This document shows, in pieces, positions 1,025 to 54,004 of a stretch of DNA of 64,000 nt. The stretch comes from Peptococcaceae bacterium (GTDB taxonomy: Bacteria; Bacillota; Peptococcia; DRI-13; PHAD01), in contig JANLFJ010000006.1 of assembly GCA_024655825.1 (NCBI GenBank), forward strand, positions 1-64,000, in the 5' to 3' direction. Numbering within the stretch: position 1 is the first letter of the stretch; the number at the start of each line of letters is the position of its first letter. Made by a program: the position numbers and the translations under genes. Below the pieces are notes generated by a model. That model saw only the letters and a program-made list of their open reading frames with translations. It was not told the DNA's origin and did not search any database.

Positions 1025-1417
1025 TTATTCACTTTTGGCAGGCTTGTATAGGAGAAACAAACACCAACCAGCTGCTAGTACTACAAAAATATGAGGGAAA
1101 GAAAATCCCCAGTGAGCCATAAAGGAACTTGGTGGTGTACCGTCAGAAATGCCGTACCCGTGGAAAACAAACCATAATACTATTGGAGGGATTTGTATTA
1201 ATGTCGTTATTAAGAGTAATGATCCAAGTACCCGTTTAGTGATAAATACGTTTGTTGAACTAAATAAAATACCCACTCCCAGTATTATCGCCATATTCCC
1301 CCATGTTCGTACTTCAGCTTCAGTTGGGCCATAGAGACCCAGGACATAGGGAAGCCCTACCGCGATAGTAAGTATACCGGTCACAATATTCCATTTTTTT
1401 ATTGTATTTTGCATCAT
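1025..1417 (-). CDS. Small integral membrane protein, unknown function
   Basis: A 130-residue protein with about four hydrophobic segments (roughly residues 10-30, 40-55, 62-85, 105-125) and a short basic C terminus. It lies 18 bases upstream of the ABC ATPase gene on the same strand, so it was probably in its operon and may have been a transport or accessory membrane component. I recognise no family motif. The start is the first of two adjacent ATGs. Confidence 0.65.
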   Translation of the reverse strand: MMQNTIKKWNIVTGILTIAVGLPYVLGLYGPTEAEVRTWGNMAIILGVGILFSSTNVFITKRVLGSLLLITTLIQIPPIVLWFVFHGYGISDGTPPSSFMAHWGFSFPHIFVVLAAGWCLFLLYKPAKSE

Positions 1418-24761: not shown

Positions 24762-26323
24762 ACTAGCTAGTTTCCCCTGAAAAAGTCGGCTTCAAAATCT
24801 CTCTAAAACCTTGAAAACATTATACTTTCAGGCTAAAACAGAAGGAGTTGCTATCCTCTGGATCGAATCTTGTAAATGATCACATCGCCTCCGTTTCCTG
24901 CGGGGTGAGCATATGTTAAGACTGAAAGATTCCCAGTTGACTGTCTGGGACGCGGTGCTCCCCGCTGAACTATTGGACGATGAAGCCTTTCTAGAACCGT
25001 TTATCGCCGGGCTTAATACCCGAACCGGTCGTCCCACGGTACCGGTAGAAACCTACCTGCGGTTAATGTATCTAAAGTTCCGGTACCAGCTGGGGTATGA
25101 AGTTCTGGTAGAGGAAGTCAAGGACAGTATCCAGTGGCGGCGCTTCTGCCGCATCCCCCTGGATGGGAAAATCCCTCACTCTACCACTCTAATCAAACCT
25201 ACCAAGCGGTATGGTCTGGAGACCATTGATAGCTTGAATGCCGCCCTAATAGCCAAAGCCAGGGAGCAAAAAGTTATCCGGGGCAGGAAACTTCGGGTTG
25301 ATACAACTGTTGTGGAAGCCGATATTCACTATCCCGCCGATGCCAGCCTGCTTTCTAACGGGGTCAAGGTAATTACCCGTACAGTAGCACAGTAAAGAAG
25401 CCGGTGTAGCTATCCGCCCCAAGTTTCAGGACCGGCGGCGGTCCGTCAAGAAACGGCTTCTGTCTATCACCAAAGTGGTTAAACGGCGTAGTGGGGAAGC
25501 CTGCAACGAAGTAAGGCAAATCACCGGAGAGATCCTGAAGGCCGCCCAGCAAGTGGCAGCTGAAGCGAAGCAGGTAATCAAGAACGCCAAGCAAAATCTA
25601 TATCGCCGCAAGGATGGTCTTGCCCCAAAAGCTCAGCAGGTAGTGCAATCACTGGAACAGGCTGTTGCATTTACCGAACAGATTATTAGCCAAACAATCG
25701 AAGTTCAGCAAGGGGGGACAAGACTTCCCCACCGAGTAGTCAGCATCTTTGACCCCGAGGCCCGTCCGATTAAGCGGGGAAAACTCCATGCTCCCACAGA
25801 ATTTGGCTACAAAGTATTGCTTCAAGAAACGGAAGAGAAGATGATTACCGGCTATCGGGTACTTGATGGCAATCCCAGTGACGATACCTTGTTAGTGGAT
25901 GCTGTGGACCGCCACATCAAGACCTTTAAACGACCTCCCCGGGCAGTGGCAACCGACCGGGGCTTTAGCAGTTCCAAGAACGAAAAGGCACTGAAAGAAC
26001 GAGGAGTTAAACGATGCAGTTTGCCCTACAAAGGAAAACTAAGTGAATCACGCAAGGAATAAAAAGGCTTCAACGCTGGCGTGCCGGTGGTGAGACTACG
26101 ATCAGTGTCCTTAAACGCAAGTTTGGACTGAGGTGTAGCCGGTTCCATGGGGTCAGCGGCACCAAATCATGGGTTGGATTGGGAATTCTGGCCTATAATT
26201 TGAGGATGATTGCCAGCTTGATTTGAACATTGAGAGGGTAATCAATCAGATATAGGGAATAGGCCACTGCCCGGTACCATCGCAGTTTTTCAAAAACAAT
26301 GTTTTTCAGGGAAAACTAGCTAG
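24762..26323 (+). mobile_element. Complete-length but inactive IS1182/ISNCY-type element
   Basis: About 1.56 kb bounded by imperfect inverted repeats of 23-24 bases (24762-24785 and 26301-26323) with core TAGTTT(C)CCCTGAAAAA. The transposase gene inside is broken. No clear target duplication is visible; TAGCTAG-like bases at both ends make the exact edge ambiguous. It sits between the divergent CapA-like and LysR genes. Confidence 0.85.
24913..26226 (+). pseudogene. IS1182/ISNCY-type transposase with two frameshifts
   Basis: The reading starts at ATG 24913 (MLRLKDSQLTVWDAVLP), with the DUF772 block TYLRLMYLKFRYQLGYEVL. A shift near 25390-25394 moves the frame (GTAGCACAG|T|AAAGAAGCC), and a second shift near 26055-26065 moves it again to WRAGGETTISVLKRKFGL and the end at 26226. 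All three segments together make the full ~437-residue enzyme. The product would be inactive unless both shifts are assembly errors. Confidence 0.85.
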
Positions 26324-34283: not shown

Positions 34284-34864
34284 ATTGTTCCTTCTTTCAC
34301 CAGATAATCAATAACCCTCTGAATTTCAGCCTGTACCTTCTTGTATTCAATCTCCTTCCAAGCTTTAAGGAGCGGTATAAACCGGGCATTGCCCGTTTGC
34401 CTGATTTTCTCAAGCAACAGCAGGATCATTCCTCTGTTTCTATCCTTCAAATCCTGAGTAAAGCCATAATCTTTTCCCTCCAGCAGCTTTGTAAGTTTTT
34501 GCAGCAGCTCCTCGGCATGGGTTTCCCGCTCTATTTCCCAACCTCTCTCAGAGAAGACAAGCATGGGAAGCCTATCCCTGTATTCAATTTCCAGGTAATC
34601 TTTCTTGATCAGCCAATCAATTCGGTTCGTTATTTCCTGCAGGGTTAACGCTTGATAGTATCCGTAGGCAGGGCATTGGTGCAGTCCATGTTCCAGTACC
34701 TTTTTATCTTTGGAGCCTTTGAGGATTTTGGCCAACATACTTCTGCCGCCAATGGCAATCAGTTCATCAGCCGCACGAAGTATAGCCCTGATTTCTTCAT
34801 CGGTTAAATCTTTTACATCACCGCTGTTCAGCGCATATCTTACTCTTGATTTTTTGCTGCTCAT
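34280..34864 (-). CDS. RQC-minor-1-like DNA-binding protein
   Basis: A 194-residue protein. Residues about 20-130 resemble the RQC winged-helix domain of RecQ helicases without the helicase (LTDEEIRAILRAADELIAIG, ILKGSKDKKVLEHGLHQCPA, LTLQEITNRIDWLIKKDYLE). I associate this with the RQC-minor-1 name. The C-terminal ~60 residues are a separate helical domain (LEKIRQTGNARFIPLLKAWK). It overlaps both neighbours by ATGA: the KilA-N gene upstream and the SWIM gene downstream. A duplex-end or fork-binding adaptor is the likely role. Confidence 0.75.
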   Translation of the reverse strand: MSSKKSRVRYALNSGDVKDLTDEEIRAILRAADELIAIGGRSMLAKILKGSKDKKVLEHGLHQCPAYGYYQALTLQEITNRIDWLIKKDYLEIEYRDRLPMLVFSERGWEIERETHAEELLQKLTKLLEGKDYGFTQDLKDRNRGMILLLLEKIRQTGNARFIPLLKAWKEIEYKKVQAEIQRVIDYLVKEGTI

Positions 34865-35679
34865 GCCTGACTCTTTTCATCCAGAGCTATTATCCTGTGA
34901 TCGTCCGTCAGCAGTTTCATCTGACTGATTGCAATGATGTTCAATTTTTTAAGGCGTTCCGACTGGGGCATTCCGTCTGCAATGAATACTGCATTCAGAT
35001 TCTCCATGTTAGAAAGGCAGACAAGCTGCGAAACATTTGCATAATCCCGAATATTGCCTTTTAGCTCCGGATTGCTGTCTCGCCATTGTTTGGCGGTCAT
35101 ACCGAACAACGCAACATTCAGGACGTCCGCTTCGCTGGCATATATCTGGTTGACTTGTTGTGGCGTAAGCTCAGGCGGGATAAGATTTTCCTTGATTGCG
35201 TCCGTATGGATACGATAATTGATTTTTGCCAGATTGCGTTTGATATCCCAGCCGAGTTGCCGTTGTTCTTCGGCCTTCATCCTTTCAAATTCTTTAATCA
35301 GATAAATTTTGAACTCTGGGCTGATCCACATGCCAAACTCAAAGGCGATGTCCTTGTAGGCGTAAGTTCCGCCATAACGGCCGGCAGTCGCTTTGAGGCC
35401 AATAGCATTTGTCTTTGCCACCCATTCTTTAACGCTGATTTTATAACTGTTCAAGCCAGCCTGACTTCTAATTATGGCGAATTCGCCATAATTAAAATTG
35501 GGGTTGTGGATTTGCTCCCATATTCCCAAAAACTCAATGGTGTTGCGATTGCGAAGCCAATCCGAGATGAAAAAATCGCCGTCCTTAGCTTTCAGCATAT
35601 CTGTCAGGGAGATATAATCCTTTTCCTCCATCGTTGCAACGGTAATTTTTGCTCCGTTCACACTGAGGTAATTTACCAT
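34861..35679 (-). CDS. KilA-N domain protein (copy 1)
   Basis: A 272-residue protein with an N-terminal KilA-N DNA-binding domain (SLTDMLKAKDGDFFISDWLR, then TIEFLGIWEQIHNPNFNYGE, and YKDIAFEFGMWISPEFKIYL). The C-terminal half (LGWDIKRNLAKINYRIHTDA, LIPPELTPQQVNQIYASEAD) matches long KilA-N proteins of bacteria and phage. ATG 35679 has AGAAGGTG before it. The stop overlaps the RQC-minor start (ATGA). KilA-N domains occur in phage anti-repressors and host defence regulators. Confidence 0.85.
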   Translation of the reverse strand: MVNYLSVNGAKITVATMEEKDYISLTDMLKAKDGDFFISDWLRNRNTIEFLGIWEQIHNPNFNYGEFAIIRSQAGLNSYKISVKEWVAKTNAIGLKATAGRYGGTYAYKDIAFEFGMWISPEFKIYLIKEFERMKAEEQRQLGWDIKRNLAKINYRIHTDAIKENLIPPELTPQQVNQIYASEADVLNVALFGMTAKQWRDSNPELKGNIRDYANVSQLVCLSNMENLNAVFIADGMPQSERLKKLNIIAISQMKLLTDDHRIIALDEKSQA

Positions 35680-35749
35680 CTGCCGCACCTTCTGTTTCTA
35701 TCCTAATTTTTTGGCTTACTTTTTTAAGTGTGCATTTTTAATAGACATT

Positions 35750-45990: not shown

Positions 45991-46010
45991 ATATGAAACA
46001 ATATGTGATC

Positions 46011-46030
46011 CGCATTATATGGATAATGCG
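46011..46030 (-). other. Perfect 8-bp hairpin in the cpaB leader
   Basis: CGCATTAT and ATAATGCG around ATGG. It lies just before the terminator at 45964-45990 in the direction of transcription. Confidence 0.5.
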
Positions 46031-46630
46031 TAGTTCAGGCATGGAGCAACAAGACCAGGTACGCTGTTAGTTATAGGGTGTAACATACGTCCCACAACCC
46101 CGATAAAAAAGTGTTTCTGCTAAAGGTAAATGCCATATATCTGCTCACAATAATTGACCAAATGTAATCTTGAAACTGCTGTATTCCTTTCAGGCACCTG
46201 TGTTGCAGCCTGTCAAGGGCGAGCGTAGCGAGTTCATTTTACCCTTGACGGGCATCACCCAGCCAAAACCCTTTTGCCCAGGTTCAGGGCTAACCTGACC
46301 CCTGCCACCCGGCGAAGGGCGGGGGTTTGGGGGTAGCGCCCCCAAAACTAAACTGCGGACAGCGGTCATGAGCAGTAGGATTTTCCAGAAAAATCACGGC
46401 AATGCAATGTTAGTATTTGGCAATAATAAATCGTTACTTAATGCTCGAATGTATTGAAGTTACTAAGTTTTGAAGGTGGTCATATATCATAAGCAATTTA
46501 TTCGGCCAAGCATATTGAGTCAATTGCGGTCATATAGCCTGAGCAGCGACAATAAAAGAGCCTGCATTACGTCTGATTACAGCTTTTACCTAATCTCAGT
46601 TAATCTCAGTCAAACGTTACCATATACAAT

Positions 46631-48094
46631 CTATCTTATTTTAATAAACTTTCGACCCGTGCGAGCTAAACAAACCCCATCTTTAATAACGAATGCCTCT
46701 ATCCAATGAGTCCCTTTATATAAAGTATGTTCCCAATGATATGGACTATAATTATTACCTTCTGCGAGAAAACCGCCACGCAAGTCACCTGCTTTAGTTG
46801 CTTCTTCCCCGGTGTTAACTATCTGCCATTGTATCTCATATGGAGCAGGCACATTTGTATTAACACGGAATCTTAACCAAACATTTGCTGGTACTGGACG
46901 TTCCGAAATTGTCCATAATTTTTTAAGTGTTTTTCGATTAAAATGAACAGAACCACTAATATCGGCTTTATAAAGAAGATTTTGAGGCCATATCGGCGGT
47001 TTACAATGATCAGTTTTGCCGAGAGGAGGAATTTGAGGCTGCTTAGTCAGCAAGAACGTAGAACCAGAAGATAAACCCATATCAAATGCGACTTTTTCCA
47101 TTATACTTTTCCCTAGAATAGGACTTAATGATTTTGTCATTTCAGTGATATGTTGTTCTTTGACTGTAGCAAAGTCACTTCGAACTCTGTCCAACCACAT
47201 TATAAATACTGTCCGTCTTTCAGGGTATTCGTTCCATTTATCTGCAAAATTCTCTTCCGCAACGGGATTAGTAACCCACCATTTATCACCTTTTCGTTCA
47301 ATAAATTTTGGCATATCCTGAACAATACTCTCTAAAGCATCATAAATATCTGCTTGTCCACGGTATGCTTTAGCTGCAAGTGTCGTTATTATTATAGAAA
47401 TTGGTTTGTTGTCAGGTTGATCTTGAAAATATATATCACGATGCCGTTTTAAAATTTGAACAGCTATCTGAAGTGGTGTTTTAACTTGCCATTCGGGCAC
47501 GTCTTCAACTTTGGCATTAAAAGATTTTGCAAGAGCAGCTCTCTTTTCAAGAAAAATTACTTCCATTCGCTTATAGAACCATTCTGCATAAGCCTTGGGA
47601 TTACTTTTCTGCCATAGTTTAAGCTCTGTGTCAGTAAGCAAAATACCTGTAGGTTCGTCTTCCAAGTTATGAATAGATGGGAGAATATCCATATGGAATT
47701 TAGGTAGTGAGTTTTGCGCAGGATAGTTTAGCGTCCAACACCTTCGTGATTGTTCCAGCATGCTGTTAAAATCAGGACGTAATTTAAGCCTGTTTCCTAC
47801 AATTGTTTTTAAATTATCCTGCGTCGTTTGTTCTTTTGCCAGATTAAGAGTACAAACTAAGTCAATATCATATTCATCTTCACCATTGATTGGACGAACT
47901 ACTGTACCAAGTCGGAAAGAACCCTGTGGATAAATTTCCGGGGAATACTTTTTCAGTTCAGATGAATCATCTCCCAACCATGCCCCTACATCTTCATATT
48001 TTATTGTAGCATCTTCGTATACATAATCTGGAATATCTAGGGCAGAAGATACTCTGGTTAGAATATCACTTATCGGATTACCATTTGCTAACAT
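46631..48094 (-). CDS. CBASS cyclic-oligonucleotide synthase (CD-NTase with AGS-C domain)
   Basis: A 487-residue nucleotidyltransferase. The catalytic core is GSFRLGT (58-64), the metal pair EYDID (D76, D78) and a third acidic residue in FHMDILPS near 136. Residues about 370-487 form the AGS-C sensor domain (WPQNLLYKADISG, RFRVNTNVPAPYEIQWQIVN, HWEHTLYKGTHWIEAFV). On phage infection it would make a cyclic di- or trinucleotide that activates CapV. AAGGAGG precedes the ATG. It overlaps capV by 7 bases. Confidence 0.9.
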   Translation of the reverse strand: MLANGNPISDILTRVSSALDIPDYVYEDATIKYEDVGAWLGDDSSELKKYSPEIYPQGSFRLGTVVRPINGEDEYDIDLVCTLNLAKEQTTQDNLKTIVGNRLKLRPDFNSMLEQSRRCWTLNYPAQNSLPKFHMDILPSIHNLEDEPTGILLTDTELKLWQKSNPKAYAEWFYKRMEVIFLEKRAALAKSFNAKVEDVPEWQVKTPLQIAVQILKRHRDIYFQDQPDNKPISIIITTLAAKAYRGQADIYDALESIVQDMPKFIERKGDKWWVTNPVAEENFADKWNEYPERRTVFIMWLDRVRSDFATVKEQHITEMTKSLSPILGKSIMEKVAFDMGLSSGSTFLLTKQPQIPPLGKTDHCKPPIWPQNLLYKADISGSVHFNRKTLKKLWTISERPVPANVWLRFRVNTNVPAPYEIQWQIVNTGEEATKAGDLRGGFLAEGNNYSPYHWEHTLYKGTHWIEAFVIKDGVCLARTGRKFIKIR

Positions 48095-49074
48095 ACGCTT
48101 TCCTCCTTACCTACGGAATAAAGCGGAGTATACTGAATTGCTTTATGTTCTTTAAATATTTTTTCAAATATAGGTATAAATTGTCGGCTTGCATGAGAAG
48201 CTTTCCCAATTAAGTCATCAGCCTTATTAGCACCATCTAGTGTAAATTCTCCTGCTGCCACTTTTGGATTAATCCTATGGACTTTCTCTTTCCCAAGTAG
48301 TAATCCTGCCTGGTTGTTTGCTGCTATACTTTGTCCTCTCATAATTACATCAATTACATCATTACCCCTTACCCAGGCGAATTTACCACCTTTATTTAGG
48401 CGTTCATGACGTGCTATTACCTCATCTGATGTTCCGATACTAAGTACAGACAATGCATCTAAATGTACACCTAACAACTTGTATGCTTCAATTATCCCAA
48501 CCATTGTCGGATTGTTTGCCCATACTCCCCCGTCTATCAAGCGTATATTGTCAACTTCACGTGTACAAGGGAAAAAAGTTGGTGCTGCTGTGGTTGCGAG
48601 TGCAACTTTCCATGCAGGTACTTTATAGTCTCGTCTGAGTTTTTCATGATGTGGGGTCTTAAATAGATAAACATCATCATCCCCGATATTATAGGACGGT
48701 ATGACCAGACGAACTTTACTATCTCCTAATGTTTTATCACCAAAACACTTCTGTAATGCTTCTTTAAGTGGCTGATTAGAATACTTATAGCGAAACCATT
48801 GTATGAGTCCTTTATAAAAAGGTATTGGTGGGAATATTTGCTGACCATAATCCAAATAGAAATTTACAATTTCTCGTGGTCTCATACCTAATCCCAATCC
48901 CAATGCAATAATACCACCTGTAGATGTACCAGTTATTAAATCAAAATGTTCAATAATGTTAACACCGGTATCTTCTTCTATCGCAGCAAGTATTGCAGCT
49001 GAAAAAAGGCCTTTAATACCTCCGCCATCAAGAGAAAGGATGTGAAACTTTTTAGATAAAGGGCCCTGCTGCAT
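48088..49074 (-). CDS. CBASS effector CapV, patatin-like phospholipase
   Basis: A 328-residue patatin. The oxyanion hole is DGGGIKG near residues 13-19, the nucleophile elbow is GTSTG near residue 50, and the catalytic Asp is in LIDGGVWANNPT. When a cyclic nucleotide binds, such enzymes cut membrane phospholipids and kill the infected cell. ATG 49074 has GGAGG 8 bases ahead. It is immediately upstream of the CD-NTase gene. No Cap2/Cap3 (E1/E2/JAB) genes follow, so this is a minimal type I CBASS. Confidence 0.9.
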   Translation of the reverse strand: MQQGPLSKKFHILSLDGGGIKGLFSAAILAAIEEDTGVNIIEHFDLITGTSTGGIIALGLGLGMRPREIVNFYLDYGQQIFPPIPFYKGLIQWFRYKYSNQPLKEALQKCFGDKTLGDSKVRLVIPSYNIGDDDVYLFKTPHHEKLRRDYKVPAWKVALATTAAPTFFPCTREVDNIRLIDGGVWANNPTMVGIIEAYKLLGVHLDALSVLSIGTSDEVIARHERLNKGGKFAWVRGNDVIDVIMRGQSIAANNQAGLLLGKEKVHRINPKVAAGEFTLDGANKADDLIGKASHASRQFIPIFEKIFKEHKAIQYTPLYSVGKEESVC

Positions 49075-49323
49075 GTTATTATCCTCCATATAATATTTAA
49101 AATGATATAACCTCTATTCCTATGAGTCGGTTTAACGCATTGATGGTATATACTACTTAAGCCTAAATAATTACTATTTAGAGAACATATGTTGCCTCAT
49201 TCAAACTTCCCATTATAAACATTAGCTCACGTTGCCATTTGTGATATTATTCTGACAAGCCCTGTCTGTATATCAAATATACTTTTATACTTTGTTAAAG
49301 TCTTGTACACACATAATTACCTG

Positions 49324-49347
49324 CTAAAAATATTCTCCACAAGCCAT
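49324..49347 (-). other. Eight-codon leader-like frame
   Basis: AGGAGG at a good distance before ATG GCT TGT GGA GAA TAT TTT TAG. The site is too good to ignore, but the frame is too short to be a protein. It may be the front of a deleted gene or a leader. Confidence 0.3.
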
Positions 49348-49414
49348 AATTTTCCTCCTAATGATAAATACTTACATTTTTCATCTTTGTATAATCAATT
49401 TAGCCTTTAGTAAA

Positions 49415-49441
49415 AAGGCCCGACAATATATGCCGGACCTT
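49415..49441 (-). terminator. Terminator after parB
   Basis: AAGGCCCG-C pairs with G-CGGACCTT with two mismatches, followed on the minus strand by TTTTTACT. It is about 25 bases past the parB stop. Confidence 0.55.
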
Positions 49442-49465
49442 AAGTATTTTGTAATTCTATTTTCT

Positions 49466-50458
49466 TCAGCCTTCACTCTTGGCTTCCTTCTTTTTCTCAA
49501 AGTAAAGGATTAGCGCCTTTTCGATAATCTCTTCAATCTCAGCCTGCTTCTGTCCGGAGGAGAAGAATTTTGCCACAAGCTTGGCCTTAAGCTTGAAGGC
49601 AACAGGCTTATCCGACTTCTTCTTTTTATCAAGCTCGCCGGCCAATACTGAATATACTATGTCTTTATCAAGCTTTCCGGCTTCTGAATATGAACGCAGA
49701 ATTTCGGCTTTGCTCATATCAACCTTAAAACCATTTTCAGCCATAATGGCTTCAACATCCCTCTGCTCATTTTCCCGCAAATAAGAAAGCGCTACTGCCG
49801 GAATAAAGGCAATTTCTTCTTTATCCACTCTTGCAAGGAGTTCAGGAATAAGCTCATTTAGCCGTAAATACCGGGCAACAGTTGGCCTTGAGAGACTGTA
49901 TTTTATGCCTGTTTTTCCTAGGCTTGTTAACCTCGTCTCAACTTGAGACGAAGTTCTATTTCCCCTTATTTCATGCGGGTTCAGGAGCTTTTCCAGCTCA
50001 TTTATCAGGTCTGTTCGAGCCCCTTGTTTTTTTAGCGTCTTATGATGCATTGCCAAGGCAATGGCCCTTTCTGAATGGCACAGATCAGCGAATGAACGTT
50101 GCATCAGGTTGGTTTCGGTTACAATCAAGGCCGCCTCTTCATCGGTAAGCTTGTCTTTTATTACCGCCGGTATCGTTTGTAATCCGGCGGTTTTGGCTGC
50201 GTTGACCCGGTTATGCCCTGACAAGATTTCATATTTTTCCTCGCCTTTGGGCCGGACAATAATCGGCACAATCACGCCAAGCTCCTTGACGCTCCGTACT
50301 ATGTCGTCGAACCGCTCTCCCGAATACAACTTGAACGGATGATTTTCATAAGGCTGGAGTGTGGATAGGGGGAGCTCCTTTACCCCCTCGGCTTCTTTCG
50401 TCTCATCGCCGAAAATATCTTTGAAGGATTGAATTCTTCCCTTTTCTCTAATTTCCAT
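49466..50458 (-). CDS. parB: ParB-like partition protein
   Basis: A 330-residue ParB/RepB-type protein. The N-terminal ParB/sulfiredoxin-like domain is clear (LSTLQPYENHPFKLYSGERF, YEILSGHNRVNAAKTAGLQT, TNLMQRSFADLCHSERAIAL), followed by a HTH (SRPTVARYLRLNELIPEL) and a C-terminal dimerisation helix. It starts inside the parA stop (overlap of 11 bases). It differs from the oriC-linked Spo0J type and fits plasmid or element partition systems. Confidence 0.85.
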   Translation of the reverse strand: MEIREKGRIQSFKDIFGDETKEAEGVKELPLSTLQPYENHPFKLYSGERFDDIVRSVKELGVIVPIIVRPKGEEKYEILSGHNRVNAAKTAGLQTIPAVIKDKLTDEEAALIVTETNLMQRSFADLCHSERAIALAMHHKTLKKQGARTDLINELEKLLNPHEIRGNRTSSQVETRLTSLGKTGIKYSLSRPTVARYLRLNELIPELLARVDKEEIAFIPAVALSYLRENEQRDVEAIMAENGFKVDMSKAEILRSYSEAGKLDKDIVYSVLAGELDKKKKSDKPVAFKLKAKLVAKFFSSGQKQAEIEEIIEKALILYFEKKKEAKSEG

Positions 50459-51242
50459 AGCTCAGATACTCCCTTCCAAAGTTTTTGTACGCTTGGGCCA
50501 CCTTGCTTTTGCCGTCGTATTCCAGAATGCTTTGTGAATTGTAGCTGGCTTCTCCGACCTTGACGGATACCGGTATTTTGCTGTCGAAGATCCTTAAGCC
50601 CCCCTTGTAAGCGTCGTTCAACAGGTTCATTATTTCTTTGGCCAGCTTTGTCCTGCCGGCAAACATGGTAATCAGGATACCGTCAATTTTGATGCCGGGA
50701 TTGATGCGTTTCTTGACCCTGGCAATTGTTTTGAGCAGAAGCTCCAGGCCTTTGGCTGAAAGGTACTGCGCTGTGGCGGGGATAAGAACGCTTTCGCAGG
50801 CCGCAAGGGCGTTGATGGTCAGCATGCCGAGCGCAGGCATGCAGTCAATAATGATGTAATCGTACCGGTCCCGCAGCTTCTCTAATACGGAAAGCAAGAT
50901 CATTTCCCGGCTCATTACATTGACCAGGCTCATTTCAACTGCCGAAAGCTCTATACTGCTGGGAAGAAGGTCAAGATTGCTGAAAGAAAGCAGGTATTCA
51001 CCCCTGTCCGGCAGTTCCTTATCTTCCACCGCCGCCATCATTAAGTGGTAGATGGTGGTTTTCAGCTCATCGGGACGGTCAATGCCAAAACACATTGTCA
51101 GGTTGGCCTGGGGATCGAAGTCGGTTAAGAGCACCTTTTTCCCAAGCTCCGACAAAACATAAGCCAGGTTTAAGGCTGTTGTGGTTTTTCCCACGCCGCC
51201 CTTCTGGTTGGCGATTGCCACAATTTTGCACTTGTTGCTCAT
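50448..51242 (-). CDS. parA: ParA-like partition ATPase
   Basis: A 264-residue ParA/Soj family ATPase. Walker A is deviant KGGVGKTTT (NQKGGVGKTT, residues 10-19), Walker A' YDYIIIDCMPALG, and the fold ends in a lysine-rich region. ATG 51242 has GGAAGGAGATAAAA in front, which makes it better than a start 36 bases upstream. Coupled to parB. It partitions or stabilises an element, possibly the integrated element bounded by the tRNA. Confidence 0.88.
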   Translation of the reverse strand: MSNKCKIVAIANQKGGVGKTTTALNLAYVLSELGKKVLLTDFDPQANLTMCFGIDRPDELKTTIYHLMMAAVEDKELPDRGEYLLSFSNLDLLPSSIELSAVEMSLVNVMSREMILLSVLEKLRDRYDYIIIDCMPALGMLTINALAACESVLIPATAQYLSAKGLELLLKTIARVKKRINPGIKIDGILITMFAGRTKLAKEIMNLLNDAYKGGLRIFDSKIPVSVKVGEASYNSQSILEYDGKSKVAQAYKNFGREYLSYGN

Positions 51243-51303
51243 TTTTATCTCCTTCCGTTTTGCTAATTTTTCATTCACATCAGATTCCGGTGAAAAACAA
51301 AAA

Positions 51304-51333
51304 GACTACGCGGTGCAAAGAAACCGCATAGTC
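51304..51333 (-). terminator. Terminator upstream of parA
   Basis: GACTA-GCGGT paired with ACCGC-TAGTC (one mismatch) and a U-rich tail TTTTTGTTTTT on the minus strand. It lies only ~60 bases before the parA start, so it may insulate or attenuate parAB. Confidence 0.75.
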
Positions 51334-51471
51334 CCAATAGTGAAGCCTTATTTAATTCTTATACTAAACCTAAACTCAAGATGACAAACGCAAGTTTCTT
51401 TGATGTTCACACTTAGCAGCCTGTCATCGTCAATTCGGTTTGGCCAACATGCCATTTTATTAAAATGAAAA

Positions 51472-51493
51472 CTGAGACCGCAATCGACCTCAG
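51472..51493 (-). terminator. Terminator just after tRNA-Ala
   Basis: CTGAG paired with CTCAG plus inner weak pairs, followed by TTTTCATTTT on the minus strand, 13 bases past the CCA end. Confidence 0.5.
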
Positions 51494-51505
51494 ATGTTTT
51501 TGATA

Positions 51506-51581
51506 TGGTGGAGCATAGCGGACTTGAACCGCTGACCTCTTGACTGCCAGTCAAGCGTTCTCCCAGCTGAACTAATGCCCC
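51506..51581 (-). tRNA. tRNA-Ala (anticodon GGC)
   Basis: The cloverleaf is complete, including CCA at 51506-51508. The acceptor stem GGGGCAT pairs with ATGCTCC, with the G3-U70 pair that identifies tRNA-Ala. The anticodon loop is CTGGCAG, giving anticodon GGC. The T loop reads GGTTCAAGTCC. It lies at the junction between core genes (above 51.7 kb) and the accessory segment, and a second tRNA fragment sits 65 bases upstream, so it may be an integration site. Confidence 0.93.
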
Positions 51582-51645
51582 AGTTATTCCCTTTTCTGGT
51601 ATTAATTTCCTGTTGCGCTTTTCCGGGGTGCGTAACTGTATCATC

Positions 51646-51671
51646 CACGCTCCCAACTGCGCTAATGCCCC
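51646..51671 (-). repeat. 5' fragment of a tRNA gene (possible attachment scar)
   Basis: GGGGCATTAGCGCAGTTGGGAG matches the first ~22 bases of a tRNA (acceptor 5' strand and D arm) and is like the start of tRNA-Ala at 51581 but with a different D arm. The sequence then departs from any tRNA. It could be what is left of a tRNA after recombination. Confidence 0.6.
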
Positions 51672-51764
51672 GGTATTCGTATAAATATGGTCACAGTTAA
51701 GATTATATGTATTAAAGGCGTTCTTGTCAACGCGAATAATCTGGCATAAACTGGGTTGGGCCGC

Positions 51765-52109
51765 TCATTCCTCGAAAGGAACCTGCGGAGCGTCGGCCCA
51801 GAGCCTCTCCAGGCTGTAAAAGTTTCTTTCCTCATCCTGGAAGATATGGACGATCACCACACCGAAATCCATTAAAATCCACCTGCCTTCGGGGTAACCT
51901 TCCCTTCTGGCCAAGGGCAGGCCGGCTTTGTTCATTTCCTCTTCCACGTGATCCGCAATGGCCTGGGTTTGCACGCGTGAATTCCCGCTGGCAAGGACAA
52001 AGTAATCGGTTAAAAGCGACAATTCCTCCAGCTTTAAAATGCTGATCTCTCTTCCTTTTTTTTCGGCTATGGCCCGTGCAGCCAGTACAGCCAGTTCTCT
52101 GCTTTTCAT
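51765..52109 (-). CDS. rsfS: Ribosome silencing factor RsfS
   Basis: A 114-residue RsfS/YbeB/iojap protein with KKGREISILKLEELSLLTDYFVLASGNS and QTQAIADHVEEE... split by turns, then EGRWILMDFGVVIVHIF, the conserved iojap core. It binds ribosomal protein uL14 and blocks 30S joining in poor conditions. It follows yqeK by one base, the usual Firmicutes order. Confidence 0.95.
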   Translation of the reverse strand: MKSRELAVLAARAIAEKKGREISILKLEELSLLTDYFVLASGNSRVQTQAIADHVEEEMNKAGLPLARREGYPEGRWILMDFGVVIVHIFQDEERNFYSLERLWADAPQVPFEE

Positions 52110-52110
52110 A

Positions 52111-52689
52111 TCATTCCCCCAGGTTTAGTTTGCTGGCAAGCAGCCAGTTTCTCGCCTCAATGGTCAGCGGGTGGATCAGGAACTCTCTTTCCAAGACATA
52201 CCTGATCGTGGAATCAAAGGCGCAAAGCATTCCCCTCGCCAGGTCGCTTGCACAGACACTTCTCAATTTATCGACACCTTGGTATTTGCGCCCGGGCTCC
52301 ACCAGGTCCGCCAGGTAAATGATTATATCCAGCATGCTCATGTTAACCCTTCCCGTGGTGTGATAGTGGATGGCCAGCAAAACCTCCTCGTCATCCACCC
52401 GCAAATCGTTTCGGCAAAGCCATGCGCCGACAGGCCCGTGCAGCAGATCCGGCTGCATTTCTTCGGCCTGGCAGGTTAAGAGATGGTTCTGCCGGGCCAC
52501 GGCAAGCAGTTCCTGGGGAGGCAGGTCCTTGGCATAATCGTGAAGAAGAGCCGCAAGATAAACCTTGTCTTTATCGACTTTTTTTCCGTCCGCCATTTTC
52601 AGCGCGGTTTTCACGACCCGCAGGGAGTGGGCCGCGCGCGATGGGCTGAGCCTCTCCTTAATAATATTGACATAATTATTAAAATTCAT
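52111..52689 (-). CDS. yqeK: YqeK-type HD phosphohydrolase (bis(5'-nucleosyl)-tetraphosphatase)
   Basis: A 192-residue HD-domain enzyme. Metal ligands are AHSLRV, LLHDYAKDL and the late IHYHTTG; these are the YqeK pattern. It hydrolyses Ap4A-type alarmones, symmetrically in relatives. ATG 52689 with GGAGAGG before it is chosen, since the longer frame has no family sequence. It is next to rsfS and downstream of the RRM gene. Confidence 0.93.
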   Translation of the reverse strand: MNFNNYVNIIKERLSPSRAAHSLRVVKTALKMADGKKVDKDKVYLAALLHDYAKDLPPQELLAVARQNHLLTCQAEEMQPDLLHGPVGAWLCRNDLRVDDEEVLLAIHYHTTGRVNMSMLDIIIYLADLVEPGRKYQGVDKLRSVCASDLARGMLCAFDSTIRYVLEREFLIHPLTIEARNWLLASKLNLGE

Positions 52690-52713
52690 CAGCTGAACCT
52701 CTCCATATAAAAA

Positions 52714-52732
52714 CCCCCTTGAGGAGAGGGGG
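52714..52732 (-). terminator. Terminator after the RRM gene
   Basis: CCCCCT pairs with AGGGGG around a 7-base loop, followed by TTTTTATA on the minus strand, 19 bases past the RRM stop. It separates the RRM gene from yqeK. Confidence 0.75.
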
Positions 52733-52750
52733 CAAATCAACCGGGGTTTA

Positions 52751-53020
52751 TCACTGTTCCCGCGATTTTGCTTCATTGACTGACAGTATGCGCCCGTTAA
52801 ATTCTTTTCCGTCAACGGAGGCGATCATGTTTTCCACGTCTTCGTCAGCAACTTCTACAAAACCAAAGCCCCGGGAACGATTGGTTTCCTTATCCTTGAT
52901 AATACGGGTGCTGATAACCTGCCCGTATGAACTGAAAAGATCCGCCAACTCCTGCGGGCTTGTTGCCCAGGGCAAATTGCCCACATATAAGGTTTTCGAC
53001 AACTGGTTCACCTCGCTCAC
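52751..53020 (-). CDS. RRM-domain RNA-binding protein
   Basis: An 89-residue single RRM protein with RNP2 LYVGNL (near 11-16) and RNP1 RGFGFVEV (near 49-56), both well conserved. Bacterial one-domain RRMs of this kind are cold-shock or stress RNA chaperones in Clostridia and cyanobacteria. It is alone, bounded by a terminator and by nadD. Confidence 0.93.
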   Translation of the reverse strand: MSEVNQLSKTLYVGNLPWATSPQELADLFSSYGQVISTRIIKDKETNRSRGFGFVEVADEDVENMIASVDGKEFNGRILSVNEAKSREQ

Positions 53021-53089
53021 CTCTGAATCATAAATCTTTTTTTATTATGCGTTATTGCTTCATTATTATACTCAGAGGCGAGCAATGCC

Positions 53090-53734
53090 TCAGCAGTGGT
53101 ATAACCCGTTTTTCCTGATAAAGTTTTCTACGGCTTCGGGCAACAGGTATTTAATGGTGCGATCATTCCTCACCCTGTGGCGAATGTCCGTGGAGGATAT
53201 GGCCATAGCAGGTACTTCCAGGGGAATGATTTTTTTAAGCAGCGCAGCCGGCAAGTTTTGGGCCAGTTTTTCGTGCAATTCGTTTAAATCAAACCCAGGC
53301 CTGGTTGCAGCGATAAAAGCGGTCTCTTTCAGGAGTTCACTTACGTTTTTCCAGGTTATTATCTCCAGAATGGCATCGGCGCCGGTGATAAAAAACAGTT
53401 CGCCGCCGGCCTTCATCTTGCTTTTAATATACATAACCGTATCGATGGCATATGATTCGCCCGGTCTGTCGATTTCCGTGCGGGAAACCTCGAAATACGG
53501 GTTGGCTGCGGTAGCCAGGACCGTCATCAGGTAGCGGTGTTCCTTGCTGCTGATGGCGACCCCTTTTTTGTGAGGCGGCTGGCCGGAAGGGACAAAGATG
53601 ACCTTGTCCAGGTTAAATTCGGAACGAGCCGCTTCCGCCGTTACAAGGTGACCCTGGTGGATCGGGTCGAAAGTACCGCCCATGATTCCGACCCTGCTTG
53701 CTCTCTGCAGGTGTAAATCCTCATGATATTCCAT
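53090..53734 (-). CDS. nadD: Nicotinate-nucleotide adenylyltransferase NadD
   Basis: A 214-residue enzyme of NAD synthesis, NaMN + ATP to NaAD + PPi. The nucleotidyltransferase motif GGTFDPIHQGH and the late ISSTDIRHRV (ISSTxIR) are clear. ATG 53734, with GGGGAG ahead, is chosen; the open frame further upstream has no family sequence. It stands in the usual rsfS-yqeK-nadD-proA neighbourhood. Confidence 0.95.
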   Translation of the reverse strand: MEYHEDLHLQRASRVGIMGGTFDPIHQGHLVTAEAARSEFNLDKVIFVPSGQPPHKKGVAISSKEHRYLMTVLATAANPYFEVSRTEIDRPGESYAIDTVMYIKSKMKAGGELFFITGADAILEIITWKNVSELLKETAFIAATRPGFDLNELHEKLAQNLPAALLKKIIPLEVPAMAISSTDIRHRVRNDRTIKYLLPEAVENFIRKNGLYHC

Positions 53735-53860
53735 AACCTGCTCCCCTGACGGTTTTATCTTAGTATAACATTTGCCAACATTCACGAACAAGAAAAATTT
53801 CCAATAGCAATAACGAAGGCAAAGCATAACATAGATACGGGAGAAAAGAGGTGGAAGAGC

Positions 53861-53977
53861 ATGTTGAAGCACCTTACAAGAAGATTTTTATGGAAAATAA
53901 GGTCTTTGCTTTACTGGCAACACCCTCACGCGCGTTTGTATTACAAATTGAAAAACGCAATCAGGAGGCTGCGTTAA
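53861..53977 (+). CDS. Small basic protein (38 aa)
   Basis: From ATG 53861 a 38-residue peptide rich in Arg, Lys and aromatic residues (LTRRFLWKIRSLLYWQHPHA, then RLYYKLKNAIRRLR) is read. GAGGTGGAAGAG precedes it, and a perfect terminator follows at 53986-54004. The position between the minus-strand nadD and proA genes, with its own terminator, suggests a real transcript. Function unknown; membrane- or RNA-binding fits its charge. Confidence 0.55.
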   Translation: MLKHLTRRFLWKIRSLLYWQHPHARLYYKLKNAIRRLR

Positions 53978-53985
53978 GCAAAAGG

Positions 53986-54004
53986 AGGAGCCGGTTCGGC
54001 TCCT
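53986..54004 (+). terminator. Terminator after the 38-aa gene
   Basis: AGGAGCCG pairs perfectly with CGGCTCCT around GTT, followed by GTTTTATTT on the plus strand. It may also end proA transcripts. Confidence 0.8.

Follow-up and report, generated by a model that had tools for sequence, protein, structure and literature searches.

A tRNA-Ala(GGC) gene split in its D-loop beside a complete, divergent tRNA-Ala: a probable integration scar of a large serine recombinase in a Peptococcaceae bacterium

Serine recombinases that integrate into tRNA genes were called rare in 2011: one tRNA-Leu gene is the target of eight mycobacterial AICE serine recombinases, and phiRSM1 uses a tRNA-Ser gene (PMC3218068, accessible text). 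The integrase of the Ralstonia filamentous phage phiRSM belongs to the resolvase/invertase subfamily, and its attP is a 13-base piece of tRNA-Ser(UCG), which the accessible text of PMC4471427 assigns once to the 3' end of the gene and once to the 5' end. Since these cases precede ours, the use of a tRNA gene by a serine integrase is not in itself new. According to Islander, an island resource in wide use, no integrases other than tyrosine integrases are known to target tRNA genes (PMC4383910, accessible text); the corresponding part of the earlier PMC3218068 contradicts this statement. For M. abscessus, the accessible portions of PMC10654092 and PMC8092301 do not describe the Int-S sites as tRNA genes.

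The locus described here lies in the window, the whole stretch of 64,000 nucleotides that was analyzed. Like the AICEs and phiRSM, it appears to be a case of a serine recombinase integrating into a tRNA gene. However, phiRSM uses a 13-bp piece at the gene end, and for neither the AICEs nor phiRSM do the accessible parts of PMC3218068 and PMC4471427 describe a D-loop split together with a complete replacement tRNA. The recombinases at loci equivalent to ours share the Resolvase, Recombinase, and zinc-ribbon domains, a tiny shared core, and paired half-sites with phages TP901-1, phiC31, and Bxb1 and with streptococcal ICEs. The usual targets of elements with such large serine recombinases (LSRs), in contrast, are protein genes, e.g., rumA, mutT, traG, and hsdM in streptococci (PMC4701971, accessible text). 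As in tRNA/tmRNA islands of the Islander type, which use tyrosine integrases, the tRNA gene is split and its function is kept, but those islands restore the gene by a gene fragment, whereas here the host gene is left unrepaired and a complete one comes with the element. The window has a 5' stump and a separate whole gene in place of the Islander layout, and no tyrosine integrase is seen among 39 scanned proteins. We found no earlier description of a D-loop split with a whole replacement tRNA in the accessible texts of the literature searched, to which subscription journals largely do not belong, and such an arrangement may have been described before.

We suggest that the tRNA pieces in the window are very probably the attL scar of an LSR-inserted element that carried a complete replacement tRNA. 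The features of the locus are collected in Table 1. In what follows, G000 is the own genome of the window strain, an assembly of 98 contigs with possible gaps, and the other G codes are compared genomes.

Table 1. Features at and around the tRNA-Ala locus, in positions of the window.
Feature	Position	Strand	Basis
SMODS/CD-NTase cyclase of CBASS, probable cargo	46631..48094	(-)	family scans
Patatin-like phospholipase, CBASS effector, probable cargo	48088..49089	(-)	family scans
ParB N-terminal-domain protein, probable cargo	49466..50458	(-)	Pfam
ParA-like ATPase, first gene behind replacement tRNA, probable cargo	50448..51242	(-)	Pfam
Terminator-like hairpin 3' of intact tRNA	51472..51493	(-)	sequence
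tRNA-Ala(GGC), intact, divergent, element-brought in the proposed reading	51506..51581	(-)	ARAGORN, Rfam, DNA searches
Proposed element DNA from stump to intact tRNA	51582..51649	(-)	own promoter not found, best 7/12
Putative attP half-site ACAGTTACGCACCCCGGAAAAGCG, registered A 22 nt from crossover	51616..51639	(-)	profile from 7 sites
5' stump of native tRNA-Ala, nt 1-22 to 24, proposed attB left half	51648..51671	(-)	sequence comparison
Predicted crossover at the dinucleotide A|G, nt 21-22 of the tRNA, at the end of the D-loop	51650..51651	(-)	half-site spacing
Native tRNA-Ala promoter TTGACA-17-TATAAT, 12/12 consensus	51702..51730	(-)	promoter comparison with relatives
RsfS, first core gene to the right, near tRNA-Ala in relatives	51765..52109	(-)	domain/relatives comparison

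ARAGORN found a single tRNA in the window, the tRNA-Ala(GGC) at 51506-51581(-) that the original prediction had reported as intact. Rfam model RF00005 supports it with 65.5 bits, above its gathering score of 29, and G3:U70 and an encoded CCA can be read in the sequence. On the minus strand, from 51671 to 51648, there is a second tRNA-Ala start, GGGGCATTAGCGCAGTTGGGAGCG, followed by a break. This stump matches nt 1-24 of the tRNA-Ala of G002 at 92%, and its 21-mer occurs once in the own genome with two mismatches allowed. No Rfam tRNA match was obtained at the stump at E ≤ 1 in a scan of 46000-54000, and therefore the fragment is truncated at about nt 22-24, very close to the base, about 22, at which the resemblance to a tRNA had been said to break.

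The stump lies 30 nt behind a promoter that matches the consensus at 12 of 12 positions, while the distance from this promoter to the intact tRNA is 120 nt. The same 12/12 TTGACA-17-TATAAT promoter is found 13-49 nt before a whole tRNA-Ala in G001, G002, G003, G005, G008, G010, G014, and G018, and a ninth relative, G012, has an 11/12 promoter there. Judged by this shared position behind the promoter, the stump is not a chance match. Furthermore, the DNA upstream of the stump can be aligned with that upstream of tRNA-Ala in G001, G005, and G002, and no promoter better than 7/12 lies nearer to the intact tRNA than the native one. Since the ancestral promoter and upstream DNA belong to the stump and not to the intact copy, this comparison identifies the stump as the native tRNA-Ala gene, split in the D-loop, and the intact divergent copy as the newcomer. 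The relatives G005, G008, G012, G014, and G018 carry a single tRNA-Ala just after the promoter and no second tRNA-Ala piece in the 3.1-15 kb examined; the fragment, which would have refuted the original prediction if present in relatives without the left genes, is thus not in place there. The promoters before the stumps of G021 and G026 (8/12) and of G258 (9/12) are weaker.

The intact copy shares 59-64 of 76 positions with 11 other tRNA-Ala genes and differs at 12-17 in an ungapped count, with changes in the acceptor, D-, and T-stems. Because of these differences, we read it as a foreign yet sound gene. Its D-stem is GTTC/GAAC, while the stump has GCGC, as do seven of the 10 other tRNA-Ala genes compared; the tRNA-Ala of G012 has GTTC on the 5' side of the D-stem, like the intact copy. 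The original prediction had left it between an element bringing tRNA-Ala and one rebuilding it, and bringing fits, since the stump keeps the native promoter and the D-stem of the intact copy is different. Two DNA searches of G000 did not find a second tRNA-Ala(GGC) gene, and therefore the host cell probably depends on the intact copy.

Other tRNA-Ala pieces were seen in two genomes. In G002, a tRNA-Ala remnant at C1:1454682-1454702 (L056 about 9703, minus) lies 1.7 kb behind the intact gene. Its nt 1-20 equal those of the window stump, and an acceptor-like ATGCTCCA follows within about 8 bp, as if the middle of the tRNA had been deleted; a 26-bp 3' end and its terminator are duplicated near the remnant. 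In G028:C114 (L083), two opposed tRNA-Ala-like matches, at 1118-1190(+) and 1661-1589(-), are 0.4 kb apart.

The layout of a stump, 55-111 bp, and a whole tRNA is also found in G021, G007, G026, G023, G258, and G495, where the stumps end at nt 22-26. LSRs of one family are present at this kind of locus in G021, G007, G026, G258, G407, and G495. In G021, one gene from rsfS, the stump and an intact tRNA-Ala are followed by a convergent intact recombinase of 554 aa, and in G007 by a 559-aa recombinase that is 53% identical to that of G021; in both genomes, the intact LSR is directly behind the intact tRNA. The relative with a stump near rsfS, G021, carries an integrase at that place, the kind of gene that the original prediction proposed to look for. 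G026 has a stump, then an intact tRNA, then a convergent recombinase. In G258, two consecutive stumps precede the intact tRNA, and a recombinase with one internal stop, together with a 3' half, lies about 17.5 kb off. Within 2.9 kb, G495 has a stump, an intact tRNA-Ala(CGC), a convergent recombinase interrupted by one internal stop, and a 3' half; since its stump does not pair with this outer half, more than one event is needed to explain the locus.

Two loci retain halves that can be matched with each other. In G023, a 12/12 promoter with an 18-nt spacer precedes a stump of nt 1-22; the element copy has its own 9/12 promoter-like site and is followed by 5.2 kb and then a 3' half from nt 16/17, and no LSR lies between the ends of this element. 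Together, the outer halves form the acceptor stem GGGGGTG/CATCTCC, whereas the copy that they enclose has GGGGCTA/TAGCTCC. In G407, a single-contig genome of 6.57 Mb, a tRNA-Val(GAC) gene is in two halves with the stem GATCTGT/ACAGATC, and only a whole tRNA-Val and a recombinase, about 2 kb, lie between them; this is the smallest element, one tRNA gene and one recombinase. Because the outer halves in G023 and G407 pair mutually and not with the inner copy, they are the halves of one split gene.

The recombinase gene ends shortly before displaced tRNA 3' pieces in G001, G249, G258, G292, and G447. In G249, the closest of these is short (27 bp, E = 0.002), and two longer pieces are found further on. 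The recombinase of G001 is a frameshifted remnant that has lost the N-terminal domain, and this genome has two copies, 90% identical, of the tRNA 3' part plus the roughly 195 bp that follow it. G001, G003, and G010 have a 3' half and no stump; a later recombination between the repeated 5' ends may have deleted the stump in these genomes.

In G003 (C9:58365-59259, L080) and G010 (C58:71781-72681, L081), an insert of about 0.8 kb from tRNA-Ala to the displaced 3' half reads as a small two-gene toxin-antitoxin-like module, and an integrase is absent from it. The DNA 3' of the G003 tRNA-Ala resembles that 3' of the intact tRNA in the window, with 86% identity over 56 bp.

To place the crossover, distances were counted outward from the A|G of GGGAG. 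At the left ends, the A of a motif like CGGTNACNNACCCC lies at +22 in the window, G021, and G007, and at +21 in G026. At right ends, where the motif is inverted, the A is at +22 in G001, +21 in G258 and G292, and +24 in G249c. Since the spacing of the left and right half-sites is similar, with registration shifts from +21 to +24, the crossover is placed at A|G. Twelve half-sites from outside the window were aligned, with the right junctions G249b and G407 outside the alignment. Seven of the 12, from seven genomes, form the profile; in the other five (G023 left and right, G003, G010, and G249a), the motif is invisible and they were omitted. This profile, which excludes the window although the motif was chosen with the window sequence already seen, scores the window junction at 15.8 bits, rank 1 of 127,954 positions, followed by 12.1. 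In leave-one-out scoring, fewer than 2 in 10,000 window positions outscored the omitted site for six of the seven, and 1.4 in 1,000 did so for G021. The proposed attL junction in the window consists of stump nt 1-22 and the first-ranked attP half-site around a short core.

Sites found later gave mixed scores: G447, which is closely related to G258, reached 17.1, the two left sites of G258 had 9.3 and 4.3, and both G495 sites were negative. G495 was found after the center had been placed, and its own motif, TTTTCTGCCC, is equidistant from that center on both sides. At shift 0, there are 15 matches in 20 compared positions, which were chosen after being seen; among the 12 shifts, no other gave more than nine, and none of 20,000 shuffles was as good. 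The sites of G023, G003, G010, and G249a that lack the motif may belong to integrases with other half-sites, may be decayed ends, or may have arisen by another mechanism.

These observations bear on a rival account of the locus, in which tRNA-Ala was duplicated in tandem and the upstream copy then decayed, with no mobile element involved. The 3' end of the stump is just 66 bp upstream of the intact tRNA-Ala, 19 of the first 22 positions are common to both, and in G007 about 25 bp of upstream sequence is apparently duplicated too, all of which such a duplication would explain. However, the stem positions differ, so the intact copy is not a recent duplicate. The breakpoint at nt 22-26 recurs beside an LSR in unrelated genomes, an attP half-site is found at the junction, and other genomes have displaced 3' halves. 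We therefore consider a duplication highly unlikely. The claim that an element integrated at a tRNA and left the fragment is instead supported by the promoter on the stump and by the scars of the relatives.

The recombinases at these scars form a distinct group. The G021 and G007 proteins have the Resolvase (PF00239), Recombinase (PF07508), and zinc-ribbon (PF13408) domains, all above the cut-off, and the closest solved structure by sequence is that of TP901-1 integrase (3bvp). Homologs of the family occur in 3/25 genomes of the order (E ≤ 1e-40), in 4/46 of the class (E ≤ 1e-60), in at least 6/398 of a phylum draw (E ≤ 1e-70, up to three candidates scored per genome), and in 2/35, 1/9, and 2/73 genomes of three neighborhoods (E ≤ 1e-90). 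These sets overlap, and the distinct genomes number 10: G001, G007, G021, G026, G249, G258, G292, G407, G447, and G495. Split tRNA pieces lie beside the family LSR in all 10, in eight cases from tRNA-Ala(GGC) and in one each from tRNA-Ala(CGC) and tRNA-Val(GAC). Loci were obtained for 30 of 73 LSR matches, two of them family members and 28 controls. None of the 28 control loci has a D-loop-split tRNA-Ala, in a comparison that covered whole tRNAs of any kind and pieces of tRNA-Ala only; two have a tRNA gene (Ser, Leu), and two an apparent tmRNA end. In a tree with the 26 controls whose ORF length was sufficient, 13 family recombinases are on one side of a branch with 100/100 support, although six of the 26 others are long branches and the point at which L115 joins the family is marked as unsafe. 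The G001 LSR, a pseudogene, was excluded from the tree.

L115 (G002) and L121 (G003) were not counted as members, and the 32-bp tRNA-like 3' ends beside them were read as tmRNA ends. Such neighborhoods of tmRNA 3' ends may be a second RNA-gene target of other LSRs. Outside chromosomes, pRUMAL02 of Ruminococcus albus has a recombinase followed by an apparent 3' half of tRNA-Asn(GTT), with no whole tRNA and no 5' half in the 49.9 kb examined of 352.6 kb. MT839225 ends about 58 bp behind a recombinase, and its final 13 bases look like the 3' end of a convergent tRNA, MT835765 ends within the recombinase gene, and no tRNA piece was seen in MT838362. A scan of viral contigs with two LSRs gave no relative, and a two-sided attP had no convincing match in three phage contigs and pRUMAL02.

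From this distribution, it seems likely that the family is a phylum-wide LSR clade specialized on tRNA-gene D-loops (Ala-GGC, Ala-CGC, Val-GAC, and probably Asn-GTT), whose elements replace the host gene with their own complete tRNA. The relatives also suggest that the integrase at the window scar was a serine and not a tyrosine recombinase. Integration at tRNA-Ala by a tyrosine recombinase would be the usual route, since the majority of tRNA-gene islands depend on tyrosine integrases (PMC4383910, accessible text). Prophages with such integrases can restore a 5' end, as with tRNA-Met in M. abscessus (PMC8092301, accessible text), and the 39 window proteins scanned with Pfam include no integrase of either kind. 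The usual product of that route, however, is an intact hybrid gene with a displaced fragment, and not a stump with a separate whole gene (PMC4383910, accessible text). The two ends in G023, G495, and G258 share just 3-8 bp or so, and the integrases at equivalent scars are serine recombinases. A tyrosine recombinase at this locus is accordingly very improbable.

The far end of the element was expected outside the window, and it was also not found by searching the whole assembly. With the host-type tRNA-Ala of G002 as query (E ≤ 10), the matches in G000 were the intact gene, the stump, and six weak ones, with no native 3' half among them, and blastn (word 7) over C6:1-104000 gave no additional tRNA-Ala piece at E < 0.05. 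The second repeat copy that had been anticipated to the left was thus not recovered, nor was an attR junction in this 98-contig, possibly gapped assembly. G000:C49:265-349 proved to be a tRNA-Val(TAC) and was rejected. An LSR of the G021/G007 family is absent from the G000 matches at E ≤ 1e-40; G000 has four LSR loci of other kinds, of which two fall outside the family in the tree. Since no family LSR was found in G000, the window locus is called a scar and not a complete element. The proposed integrase search was fruitless among the window proteins scanned and, for this family, in G000, and successful at the scars of the relatives.

In the relatives, tRNA-Ala(GGC) comes after rsfS on the same strand, at times with one or two genes between, and an RsfS query against the genome contigs gave seven loci, which were left out of the comparison. 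RsfS, an HD/YqeK-like gene, and further genes on the right flank are collinear in the relatives, in agreement with the core character assigned to this side. When the 68 window ORFs were compared with 19 stretches, which are short and do not all extend far behind the tRNA, those on the left gave just generic ABC-transporter matches; one of the ORFs overlaps the tRNA itself. Between the replacement tRNA and the start of ParA, 263 bp behind it, we read no sign of a further junction. ParAB, the CBASS pair, and further genes to the left are probably cargo of the element. It is quite conceivable, if somewhat short of probable, that a later deletion or IS removed most of the element and that the block at 51-29 kb is unrelated to it, which is compatible with the scar as proposed. 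The attR and the family LSR were not found in the assembly, base composition in the region is patchy, and the block is a mixture of ParAB, CBASS, and Tad-like pilus genes with transposase pieces beyond. The short distance from the tRNA to ParA, with no other junction visible between, argues against such a loss.

Two further features were noted in the left part of the window. At 34861-35688, a KilA-N protein matches the PADLOC candidate PDC-S22 (3.5e-130), and its neighbors are a second KilA-N gene and an RQC-domain protein. At 24913-26062, there are transposase pieces in two adjacent ORFs (DUF772; sub-threshold DDE_Tnp_1), probably a broken IS.

The attB and attP sites of serine integrases differ outside a short core, and therefore integration does not bring the 3' part of the gene to the junction. 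We propose that the LSR recombined the element's attP with an attB lying within the native tRNA-Ala(GGC), at the D-loop A|G of nt 21-22. The native gene would end as a 5' stump and a displaced 3' half, and the element would compensate with a complete tRNA-Ala gene just inside its end. Transcription of the foreign tRNA probably starts at the native promoter and runs through the stump, and RNase P would then free the tRNA. In the window strain, the far end, with the native 3' half, the second attP half, and the integrase gene, may have been deleted or may lie in an assembly gap.

If this mechanism is correct, the elements destroy the host tRNA gene and bring their own, and therefore the clade would swap essential tRNA genes between lineages, a route for the horizontal replacement of an essential tRNA gene. 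The host would be made dependent on the element, and elements can stack, as the two stumps of G258 indicate. Island finders that are built on a tRNA plus a displaced fragment may misread the layout of a 5' stump and a whole gene. The loci also yield candidate integrase/attB pairs with a conserved tRNA target. As a large case that spans the phylum, the clade would represent another solution to integration at a tRNA gene, in which the host gene is left broken and a whole one is brought.
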